NCBI GenBank assembly: GCA_031253655.1 | Contig: JAIRVY010000093.1 | Location: forward strand, 1 to 37,532 | Direction of reading: 5' to 3' | DNA from: Bacteroidales bacterium | GTDB taxonomy: Bacteria > Bacteroidota > Bacteroidia > Bacteroidales > WCHB1-69 | DNA length: 37,532 nucleotides | Shown: positions 18,234 through 24,437 of the stretch, piece after piece | Layout of the letters: every line of letters begins with the position of its first letter | Numbering within the stretch: position 1 is the stretch's first letter | Position numbers and translations under genes: made by a program | The notes under the pieces: model-generated | What the model was told of the DNA's origin: nothing | Seen by the model: the letters and a program-made list of their open reading frames with translations, nothing else | Databases searched by the model: none

Positions 18234-18366
18234 ACGTGTAAATTTTAAAGTTTGGCAACGCGAAATTACACTTTTTCCCCGCAAGCGATAAGAATAACTT
18301 ATAGGGTGCACATCTAGGTTCGAGACCGGAGCGGGAGCTAAAAAAAACAAAAAACAATAATAACCA

Positions 18367-20394
18367 ATGGCATATCAAATAATAGACGGAACGGTTTGTA
18401 TTACGGTGAATGACTGGGTGGCGTGTGGTTTAACTTATCCTCAGTTTAATACAGATAGTTATAGAGGTTATTTAACCATTTTCCGGCGCGGGCTTTACGG
18501 AAACACGTTGATTGATATTTCCAGCATTCGCCGCCCCGAACGTTTGGAGGTAATAGAGGCTAATATGGGAAAGGCTTTTCCGAGTGCATCGGCAAAAGAT
18601 GCCAAAGAAGGTGTAAGGATTGATGGCGAGGCTGAATTTTTTTACAGAACTTACAGAGATGAACTTGGCATTGAATTGATTGAGGAAAAGAAGAGGCTAT
18701 ATACCAACAACGCGAGCATCTTAAACTATTATGTGAATATGTATGAGGAGCATATTCGCGTTCGTGCAGCACGTGGCAAAAAGCCATTGGCAGCAGACTT
18801 TTTTAAGAATTGCTGCAAATGTTCAAAGGAACTTTACGAAATACCTGACCATGCCGGCGGAATTGAAAACAATTTACCCACGAATGTTCGCCGTTTTGAA
18901 GAAAAATTCAGAGAATACCGAAAACTTTACCTCTCTAACAGAGAAGCAGCTTACGAATCATTAATCAAAAAATCATCTTTCTGTAATAACGCCGCAAAAC
19001 TAACCGGCTCCGCTAAGGATTGGGTAATTGCCCGGTGGTCATCTCAGGTGAATAAGTGCACGCTTTATCAACTTTTTGATGAATACAACCATCGGGCAAG
19101 TGCGGAGCCTGAACTGAAGTGGAAGTCCATTCACGAGCCGCGAACGCTGTATCTGTTTCTAAATAAGCCGGAAGTTAAGGCTTTGTGGTACGGTTGTCGC
19201 TTTGGCGAGTTGAAATTCAAGGAAAAATATGTCCGTCAACACAGTACGGAATTGCCCACCAGGCGCGATACGTTGTGGTATGGAGACGGAACAAAACTTA
19301 ACTACTACTACCGGGATGAAAAGGGCGAAGTGGCAACGATTAACGTGTACGAGGTTATGGATGTGTACAGCGAAGTATTTTTGGGTTACCATATCAGTAA
19401 AAACGAAGACTTTGAAGCACAGTTCCACGCCTATAAAATGGCAATAGAAACATCCGGGTGCAAGCCTTACGAGATACGGTTCGACAATCAAGGCGGACAC
19501 AAGAAGTTGAAAAACAATCAGTTTTTTAAGAATTTGGCACGCTTGGCAATTAATACACAGCCTTACAACGGAAAAAGCAAAACCATTGAGAGCGCCTTTG
19601 GACGTTTTCAGGCAGAATTTTTACACAAGGACTGGTTTTTTACCGGTATGAATATTCAGGCAAAGTTGGAGGAAAGCAAAGTGAACCGCGAATTTGTAAA
19701 CGCCAACCTTACCAACTTGCCCACACTTGATGAGATAAAAAAGATATACGAAAAACGCCGCCGCGAATGGAACGATGGCGTGCATTATGCCACCGGTAAA
19801 CGCCGCATTGATATGTATCGCGAAAGCCAAAACGAAAAGGCAACACAGGTAAGCGCGTATGATATGATACTCTTGTTTGGCATGATAAATAACAAACCGG
19901 TTAAATACCGTGCAAACGGCATTGTAATGGAAGTTAAAAAGCAAAAATATCAATTTGAAGTATTGAAAAACGGCGCACCGGATATTGACTTTAACCTGCG
20001 CAATATTGACAGGGAGTTTTATGTGGGATATTTTTTAGAGGATATGACTACCGTGGCTCTTTACGAAAAATCGGCAACCGGCGATTACCGTTTTGTTGCT
20101 ATGGCAGGGAAGTATATCAAAATTCATCGTGCAAAACAGGAGCAAGACGAGTTAGACTATGCGTTTATTGCGGCTATGAACAGAGTAAATAAAACAATGC
20201 GCATTACTATTCACGAGGGTGCGGAGCAACGCCTTGAACGTCACGGCTACCACCCCTCACAATTCGGATTACAAATGCCCAAACTCAAAGGTATATCCAA
20301 AAAGGATTACAGTGTGGGCAAATCGCTCAAGGCGGAAAGTAATTTGGTAGAAAGTTTAGACAAAGAGGTAGAATGTGTCGCAGCAATTTATTAA
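18367..20394 (+). CDS. Mu A-like DDE transposase
   Basis: A 675-aa rve/DDE-family recombinase of about the length of MuA. The catalytic triad is D307 ('LWYGDGTKLNYYY'), D373 ('IRFDNQGGHKK') and E408 ('KTIESAFGRFQAEF'), in an RNase H-like core. The N-terminal third is a DNA-binding part; the region after about 500 matches the Mu-transposase C-terminal beta-barrel that contacts DNA and the B protein. It catalyses strand transfer during lysogeny and replicative transposition. It begins 133 bp after the last upstream rightward start's ORF end and is followed by the B-like gene 18 bp later. Confidence 0.9.
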   Translation: MAYQIIDGTVCITVNDWVACGLTYPQFNTDSYRGYLTIFRRGLYGNTLIDISSIRRPERLEVIEANMGKAFPSASAKDAKEGVRIDGEAEFFYRTYRDELGIELIEEKKRLYTNNASILNYYVNMYEEHIRVRAARGKKPLAADFFKNCCKCSKELYEIPDHAGGIENNLPTNVRRFEEKFREYRKLYLSNREAAYESLIKKSSFCNNAAKLTGSAKDWVIARWSSQVNKCTLYQLFDEYNHRASAEPELKWKSIHEPRTLYLFLNKPEVKALWYGCRFGELKFKEKYVRQHSTELPTRRDTLWYGDGTKLNYYYRDEKGEVATINVYEVMDVYSEVFLGYHISKNEDFEAQFHAYKMAIETSGCKPYEIRFDNQGGHKKLKNNQFFKNLARLAINTQPYNGKSKTIESAFGRFQAEFLHKDWFFTGMNIQAKLEESKVNREFVNANLTNLPTLDEIKKIYEKRRREWNDGVHYATGKRRIDMYRESQNEKATQVSAYDMILLFGMINNKPVKYRANGIVMEVKKQKYQFEVLKNGAPDIDFNLRNIDREFYVGYFLEDMTTVALYEKSATGDYRFVAMAGKYIKIHRAKQEQDELDYAFIAAMNRVNKTMRITIHEGAEQRLERHGYHPSQFGLQMPKLKGISKKDYSVGKSLKAESNLVESLDKEVECVAAIY

Positions 20395-23314: not shown

Positions 23315-23830
23315 ATGGCAAAAACAAGAGAAAAAAAGGTGATTCACTCAGGTGTTACCACCGAGCAAATGGAACTGGCATTTGCGGATTATGCGCGTTG
23401 TGATGCGCGTATTCAAAAAATCAATGCCCAAATGGACATTGAAATGGTAAAGATTCGCGAAAAGAATGCTGAGGAAATAGGCAGGCTGAGCGAGTTGAAA
23501 GATAAATCTTTCGACATTCTGCAGTCTTATGCTATGGAAAACAAGGCGGAAGTCTTTATCAAAAGAAAAAGTATGGAGACAGTGCACGGCGTTCTGGGCT
23601 TCAGAACAGGCACACCGCAACTGAAAACGCTGAAGGGTTTCACATGGAAGGCGGTAACCAATCTGTTAAAGGAGTTCCTGCCGGATTATGTGCGCACAGC
23701 GGAGGAGCCGGCAAAGGACAGACTGCTTGCCGACAGGGACCTTCCGGAAGCGGCAGTGCACTTTTCCAAAGTAGGGATTTTTGTAACACAGGATGAAACG
23801 TTTTTTGTGGAACCGAAAAAAGAGGAATAA
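23315..23830 (+). CDS. Gam-like host-nuclease inhibitor
   Basis: A 171-aa protein. The first 80 residues form a long coiled coil ('DARIQKINAQMDIEMVKIRE', 'EIGRLSELKDKSFDILQSYA'), followed by 'GVLGFRTGTPQLKTLKGFTW', the conserved strand segment of Mu Gam. Gam is the phage relative of Ku: it binds DNA ends and blocks host exonucleases. Its place in the early operon behind B agrees. Fairly confident. Confidence 0.8.
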   Translation: MAKTREKKVIHSGVTTEQMELAFADYARCDARIQKINAQMDIEMVKIREKNAEEIGRLSELKDKSFDILQSYAMENKAEVFIKRKSMETVHGVLGFRTGTPQLKTLKGFTWKAVTNLLKEFLPDYVRTAEEPAKDRLLADRDLPEAAVHFSKVGIFVTQDETFFVEPKKEE

Positions 23831-23864: not shown

Positions 23865-24053
23865 ATGAAAATTTCAAAATTAGAAAAGGGTACAGTTTTT
23901 ACAACTGTAAAAGGAAAATCCGAATATCAGTATATCGGAAAATTTACCAGCGAAGATGGGGTAGATTACTACCTTTCTACCCACGCTTATTCAAATGGTA
24001 AAAGTGGTTTTTATACTACTAAGGACATTGAGGTAATTGATTTGCCATTTTAA
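23865..24053 (+). CDS. small hypothetical protein (62 aa)
   Basis: A 62-residue protein with strand-like alternation ('TVFTTVKGKSEYQYIGKF', 'DYYLSTHAYSNGKSGFYTT'), suggesting a small beta barrel (SH3-like). No named family. It ends 8 bp before the tRNA-like hairpin element at 24062. Confidence 0.5.
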   Translation: MKISKLEKGTVFTTVKGKSEYQYIGKFTSEDGVDYYLSTHAYSNGKSGFYTTKDIEVIDLPF

Positions 24054-24061
24054 AAATGGTA

Positions 24062-24116
24062 TTCGGTGTGTGGGGCACTAAAATAAAGGGCGGGTTCGAT
24101 TCCCGCCACCGGAGCA
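24062..24116 (+). ncRNA. tRNA-like acceptor/T-arm minihelix element
   Basis: A 7-bp acceptor-like stem (TTCGGTG 24062-24068 with CACCGGA 24107-24113, one G.U pair) stacks on a T-arm of perfect form: stem GCGGG 24090-24094 / CCCGC 24102-24106 and the canonical 7-nt loop TTCGATT. The 21 nt between acceptor and T-stem (24069-24089) are too few for D and anticodon arms. No CCA follows; the end is G-CA. It lies between two small genes in the early operon. It may be a processed tRNA mimic, a decayed tRNA, or chance. Confidence 0.45.
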
Positions 24117-24152
24117 AAATTAATCATTAACCACTAATCATTAATCACTACT

Positions 24153-24437
24153 ATGAAAGTTTATCTCGCCGGCAAAATTTCAGGGCTTAATTATACGGAT
24201 ATTTTTGTGAAATTCAACGCAGCGGAATTTCTACTCAAGCAAGCCGGCTATACTGTAGTGAACCCTATCCGGCTGGTTTCGCAAGATTGGCTTTGGGAAA
24301 AGTGTATGAAAGTATGTATAGGCGGATTGGTGCAATGCGATGCCATTTACCTGTTGCCCGACTGGGCGGAAAGCAGGGGGGCAAAATTAGAATACCATAT
24401 TGCGCAAGAACTTAAACTTAAATTAATAGCATTATGA
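24153..24437 (+). CDS. DUF4406-like protein (nucleoside 2-deoxyribosyltransferase-like fold)
   Basis: A 94-aa protein starting 'MKVYLAGKISGLNY', with 'AGYTVVNPIR' and ending with 'CDAIYLLPDWAESRGAKLEY', the features of DUF4406 proteins, small relatives of nucleoside deoxyribosyltransferases. Common in phages; function is not established, with nucleotide metabolism a guess. It overlaps the next gene by 4 bp (ATGA). Confidence 0.7.
   Translation: MKVYLAGKISGLNYTDIFVKFNAAEFLLKQAGYTVVNPIRLVSQDWLWEKCMKVCIGGLVQCDAIYLLPDWAESRGAKLEYHIAQELKLKLIAL

Follow-up and report, generated by a model that had tools for sequence, protein, structure and literature searches.

In mitochondrial transcripts, tRNAs lying between genes serve as punctuation, the marks being working tRNAs in their own right. 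The eukaryotic nuclear RNA mascRNA and menRNA (RF01684) are short, with an acceptor stem, a T-arm and a reduced middle, and phage C4 is an antisense immunity RNA. As described in PMC11143913, the phage M3 and C4 RNAs mimic pre-tRNA and are substrates of host RNase P, as are some polycistronic mRNAs, and RNase P also cleaves minimal hairpins composed of an acceptor stem, T-stem and T-loop.

The element described here is located at 24062-24116 (+) of a 37,532-nt stretch of Bacteroidales DNA (contig JAIRVY010000093.1; the whole stretch analysed is termed the window). With the minimal RNase P hairpins it shares the coaxial acceptor/T-stem helix and the T-loop, but those hairpins are laboratory constructs, whereas this is a natural element, known here from its sequence, that lies in phage mRNA leaders and has a 3′ N-CA end. 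It is likened to M3 and C4 by description, not by sequence, and unlike C4 it is a leader to protein-coding genes, found repeatedly and in varied forms. The mascRNA/menRNA model is its best full-length Rfam match, at 17.3 bits far below the cut-off of 42.5. The acceptor, T-arm and N73-C-A 3′ end are common to tRNA genes (RF00005), and some members of the class documented below have D- and anticodon-like arms, but an anticodon arm is lacking in the window element. As in mitochondria, tRNA-shaped marks lie between genes of one transcript, but most of the phage elements cannot decode. A literature search, with most subscription journals and all preprints outside its scope, found no report of tRNA-like elements in Mu-like Bacteroidetes prophages or transposable phages. 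The main text of two hankyphage papers has no word beginning with "tRNA", and in passages of the Porphyromonas gingivalis phage paper tRNA is mentioned for the insertion sites of other phages.

An acceptor/T-arm element between early prophage genes

The sequence-only reading had described a 7-bp acceptor-like stem, a perfect T-arm and 21 nt between them, and this description is correct to the base. The 5′-strand of the acceptor-like stem, TTCGGTG (24062-24068), forms 7 of 7 pairs, one of them G.U, with the 3′-strand, CACCGGA (24107-24113), and these pairs are kept in the homologue L156/L243. The D and anticodon arms are replaced by a 21-nt middle (24069-24089), a region that elsewhere has 8-89 nt. 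The T-arm (24090-24106) has the stem strands GCGGG (24090-24094) and CCCGC (24102-24106), with the loop TTCGATT (24095-24101), and aligns without mismatch to the tmRNA T-arm model. A discriminator-like G and then CA follow at 24114-24116. All 12 acceptor and T-stem pairs can form and both helices are present in the predicted RNA fold. A small hairpin predicted within the 21-nt middle, where a D-arm might be sought, overlaps the last acceptor bases; there is no room for an anticodon arm, and none is present in the predicted fold or found by ARAGORN. The folding energy is ordinary (z -1.2; 28 of 200 shuffles are equally or more stable), and it is comparison among relatives, not folding energy, that places the element beyond chance.

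The 99-bp intergenic position was also confirmed, with the gap bounded by a stop at 24053 and an ATG at 24153 in the ORF list. A Mu Gam-like gene (23315-23830, +; PF07352, E 5.8e-32) lies 5′ of the element, followed by an ORF (23865-24053) directly 5′ of the gap that encodes a 62-aa protein with only one weak match among 196 other genomes. The gene 3′ of the element (24153-24437, +) encodes a DUF4406 protein (PF14359, E 8.6e-24), and the order of element and DUF4406 gene is common to L156. The leader of this gene (24117-24152, +) is without a Shine-Dalgarno-like sequence and is mostly heptamer repeats, (CATTAAT/CATTAAC/CACTAAT)n at 24118-24152, that are also present before DUF4406 in L156 and are repeated dozens of times across the host genome (e.g. 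L009-L028), often directly before start codons. Abutting the 5′-end of the acceptor is the sequence GGTA (24058-24061, +), and GG[TC][AG] is present at this position in 17 of 41 acceptor-bearing elements. The motif is over-represented, is often within RATGGYA and is not present in the host tRNA flanks listed. A 24-codon peptide from an ATG at 24056 was also considered, and was dropped because that frame has an early stop in L156.

By tRNA standards, the window element has a 7-bp acceptor stem with an unpaired discriminator and a 5-bp T-arm with a TTCRANY loop. Nevertheless, ARAGORN predicts no tRNA in the window and there is no Rfam match in the window at the gathering threshold, so the RF00005 cut-off is not reached. 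At the E-value threshold, the only own-strand matches are the mascRNA match noted above and a tmRNA T-arm match (17 bits, cut-off 47), and no RF00005 row is returned for the element even at E 10, with one overlapping same-clan match of lower score omitted by the tool. As in RNase P substrates, there is a coaxial acceptor/T-stem helix of ~12 bp with a T-loop, all 12 pairs of which are kept in homologues. The 3′ RCCA of such substrates is absent, the element ending G-CA-AAA with one C of CCA encoded. Most host tRNA genes likewise stop at C74 or CA: of the 30, all encode C74 and 17 encode CA.

Host tRNAs and other genomes

The host genome (G000) is 91% complete and has 30 tRNA genes above the Rfam cut-off. 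A decayed host tRNA, one of the origins suggested by the sequence-only reading, is unsupported, as the window element aligns to these genes only over the T-arm consensus; the top alignment scores, 31, are to Leu(TAA) and Arg(CCT). The middle of the window element does look eroded relative to L156, which Rfam scores as a tRNA. Among the sub-cut-off tRNA-like matches in the host genome, one is antisense within a long ORF, one is a tmRNA-like 3′-sequence and one is a tRNA-Pro-like 3′-fragment (L255, near 7772-7842 of contig C23). The last lies directly before a tRNA-Arg(TCT) gene and is possibly an old integration scar.

A DNA search of the element's own genome listed 45 other places, and those examined are the downstream heptamer repeat and not the element. 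Across 197 genomes there are matches in 11, one being the window's own. For the 10 others, ARAGORN identifies a tRNA or tmRNA gene at the site in 6, two (L063 and L067) look by eye like parts of tRNA-Leu genes and two (L060 and L068) look like chance. An exact 27-mer of the element is absent from viral_contigs.

Homologues and a damaged second copy

L156 and L243 are one and the same contig, IMG/VR 3300027891_000299, which encodes a transposase 90% identical to that of the window. This contig has a minimal element with a 10-nt middle before the transposase gene and a fuller one before DUF4406. The latter, L156, is syntenic with the window element, and in a comparison of the two, 10 pairs are identical, one is changed on both sides (C-G to G-C), one is G.U and none is broken. 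The identity of their middles is 26%, although all 12 pairs are kept. At 39.2 bits L156 reaches the Rfam tRNA cut-off, although a D-arm and an anticodon arm could not both fit into its 27-nt middle. The window also has a MuA-like transposase gene (18367-20394, +; rve E 7e-5, below the Pfam cut-off, with tblastn matches to annotated phage Mu A-like transposases). Located 26 nt before it, at 18277-18340 (+), is a sequence that, when aligned with the intact L243 element, is recognizable as a second copy, in which the CCCGC/GCGGG stem is kept and the T-stem and T-loop are broken. By alignment, the window prophage thus has one intact and one damaged copy.

Other homologue pairs also have paired changes. 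There are five double changes with none broken in L191-L192, three with none broken in each of L130-L225 and L199-L226, and six with one broken in L179-L197. Pairs in which the register disagrees have up to 8 broken pairs and may be non-homologous elements. All of these pairs were taken from detected elements only, which favours kept pairs. When six elements (those of the window, L156, L157, L154 and two P. gingivalis phages) are aligned, 97.2% of the cells are paired, versus 40-53% after a shift of 1-3 columns; three pairs are changed on both sides, which is modest support with six sequences. The full T-stem is missing from the minimum-energy folds predicted for L156 and L249.

A class of elements in Bacteroidota Mu-like phages

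The loci surveyed were the best 80 of 105 and the best 80 of 128 gam relatives, 11 DUF4406 loci, 5 transposase loci and 5 phage records, with contexts >90% identical counted once. In the first set (the window and 91 loci), a scan for 5-bp T-arms identified 22 sense sites, of which 17 have an acceptor, and 5 antisense sites, of which none does; the shuffle expectation is 1.6 and 0.8 T-arms per strand. The second set, 80 genome loci, has 38 sense (33 with an acceptor) and 2 antisense (1 with an acceptor). Combined and non-redundant, there are 58 sense and 5 antisense sites in 182 sequences, a count made before 8 further phage records were added. Strong acceptors are present at 23 of the 58 sense sites, whereas 300 exchanges of the 3′-strands between sites yield 1.9 on average and 6.2 at most, and CA follows the discriminator position at 39 of the 58. 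Several prophages have two or three elements. The annotated phage records that bear the element, including those of hankyphage and the P. gingivalis phages, list no RNA feature there, and in hankyphage p00 it is located in the gap at 1756-1876, before an early gene, with the first acceptor base at about 1767 of BK010646. By the same scan there is no site in the early regions of phages Mu and D3112, Peternella_1 or MT835523.

Extending the search for this stem-loop to related prophages has thus produced many sense-strand sites, and double changes within homologue pairs. From such comparisons it is well supported that tRNA-mimic elements constitute a widespread class in the Mu-like phages of Bacteroidota from the gut and mouth. 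This membership, and the damaged copy before the transposase gene of the same prophage, go beyond the sequence-only reading, whose observation is confirmed and whose interpretation is partly supported and widened. Its suggestion of a tRNA mimic is well supported by the paired changes, the same-strand bias and the fixed place before start codons.

With the additional phage records there are 188 sequences, and these have 49 non-redundant acceptor-bearing elements, some of which are uncertain because 6/7-pair acceptor matches can arise by chance. The middle is <35 nt in 12, 35-46 nt in 15 and longer in 22. ARAGORN recognises 14 of the 49, seven with a 3-nt anticodon and seven as tRNA-???, and the seven with a readable anticodon could be ordinary phage tRNAs. 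All ARAGORN calls in the 188 sequences, 20, are on the plus strand and none is on the minus strand. Of 12 loci examined, only L187, L249 and L156/L243 score high enough to reach the Rfam tRNA cut-off. Minimal forms with middles of 8-16 nt occur in different phages. P. gingivalis phage 015a has a stub where the anticodon arm would be, and at the same place phage 381OKJP has an 89-nt middle with extra stems predicted on an intact acceptor/D-like/T-arm frame. What is conserved is the coaxial acceptor/T-arm helix together with a 3′ N-CA end resembling that of host tRNA genes, and the anticodon side is free to shrink, grow or vanish.

Position before transposase genes

Elements are found preferentially immediately 5′ of the transposase gene. 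MuA starts with <130 nt of upstream sequence were excluded, and a strict T-arm was then found within 110 nt upstream of 19 of 81 non-redundant MuA starts, with 14-27 nt between the discriminator and the ATG. The same scan identified none before 107 MuB and 127 gam starts, and 2 before 35 DUF4406 starts, those of the window and L156. A relaxed scan increased the numbers to 21 of 81 for MuA (one, L176, is A/T-rich and probably chance), 2 of 107 for MuB and 8 of 127 for gam. None of the 21 MuA genes with a T-arm in the relaxed set has a Shine-Dalgarno-like sequence, which is present in 15 of the remaining 60 (p 0.0086), and the A content of the last 14 leader bases is 0.59 versus 0.40. MFE z-scores barely separate the two groups (medians -0.89 with and -0.36 without a T-arm). 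The strict scan found no element before 62 of the 81 MuA starts, and there is none before DUF4406 in the closest gam relative (L072/L152). The element is thus not essential. In L152, an intrinsic-terminator-like hairpin with a T-run (2950-2990) lies directly before DUF4406 in place of the element.

Possible processing by RNase P

Because RNase P needs no more than the acceptor/T-arm domain and the host genome encodes RNase P RNA (259.5 bits), cleavage at the first acceptor base is proposed. Host RNase P would cut the early RNA, which is polycistronic, where the acceptor stem begins, and the downstream message, encoding the transposase or, in the window, the DUF4406 protein, would then start with a 5′-phosphate at the very edge of a stable helix. 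After the helix would come a short leader rich in A, as favoured by Bacteroidota ribosomes. In hosts with RNase Z, the RNA could be cut again after the discriminator, so that the leader alone would remain. Most other genomes of the order that were searched have a good RNase Z match. A 3′ endonucleolytic cut is doubtful in the window host because its genome has no match to RNase Z (TIGR02651), and nothing beyond a weak paralogue was found in any of the 6 genomes of its genus (G000 and five others). We infer from sequence comparison, with a probability of about 0.5, that the elements are tRNA-mimic punctuation cut by RNase P, with this cleavage giving early mRNAs a structured 5′-end and thereby affecting their expression. 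More tentatively, the anticodon-less mimics might be reusable punctuation, with which host RNase P divides a single early transcript into individual messages that all have a tRNA-like 5′ cap and an A-rich leader, with the anticodon side evolving freely or gaining domains, as in 381OKJP.

The helix might instead remain uncut, as a 5′-leader structure that either protects the mRNA against decay or keeps upstream RNA and translation from interfering with the start region, its tRNA likeness then reflecting ancestry more than recognition by an enzyme. The short distance from the element to the transposase ATG is consistent with this, as are plain hairpins of ~10-12 bp that, by eye, are near the same place in L164, L172 and L175 (z -5.2, -4.4 and -4.8), and the dependence of Bacteroidota initiation on leader structure described in PMC6847099. 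A plain insulator, however, needs no T-loop, no 7+5 bp register and no N-CA, and these recur around unrelated middles; we consider this explanation rather unlikely. That the elements are relics, phage tRNA genes decaying after loss of the anticodon half, seems quite improbable. Readable anticodons in 7 of the 49 elements, the tRNA score of L156 and the plainly damaged pre-transposase copy of the window favour it. Against it are the double changes that preserve stems around a rapidly altered middle, the sense-strand orientation and fixed distance to a start codon, the minimal forms in different phages or the exclusively plus-strand ARAGORN calls.

We regard as still more improbable a role as decoys or sensors, free tRNA-like RNAs whose binding partner would be EF-Tu, a synthetase, a modifying enzyme or a defence nuclease directed at tRNA. 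The acceptor/T-arm is the part of a tRNA that these proteins contact, and the presence of two or three elements in several prophages is consistent with this role. Host defences that cut tRNA ends exist, as reported in PMC12851939. A decoy does not, however, predict a fixed place before start codons or a sense-only orientation, and a normal anticodon arm is missing in most of the elements.

If the RNase P reading is true, tRNA punctuation of mRNA, best known from mitochondria, would also occur in an important group of phages from the gut and mouth, where the mimics have no need to decode. This would account for the clean leaders of the transposase and other early genes in a phylum in which ribosomes ignore Shine-Dalgarno sequences and avoid leaders with structure. 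The class would also constitute a natural set of presumed RNase P substrates reduced to varying extents, and an unannotated RNA feature is added to hankyphage, for which induced RNA-seq data exist (Bacteroides thetaiotaomicron jmh43 with the repressor silenced; PMC12135933).

Other features of MuA leaders

Plain 10-12-bp hairpins or long stems, identified by eye, occupy the element's place upstream of MuA not only in the three loci noted above but also in L245, and these might be T-loop-less forms of the element. As described in PMC3155529, PMC6847099 and PMC9976891, Shine-Dalgarno sequences are absent or ignored in Bacteroidota and initiation is tuned by leader structure. A group of MuA genes, mostly of Prevotella type (e.g. 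L202, L205, L206, L210, L222 and L234), comes after an upstream stop codon and has an AAGGAGG-like sequence, which is odd for a phylum reported to ignore such signals.
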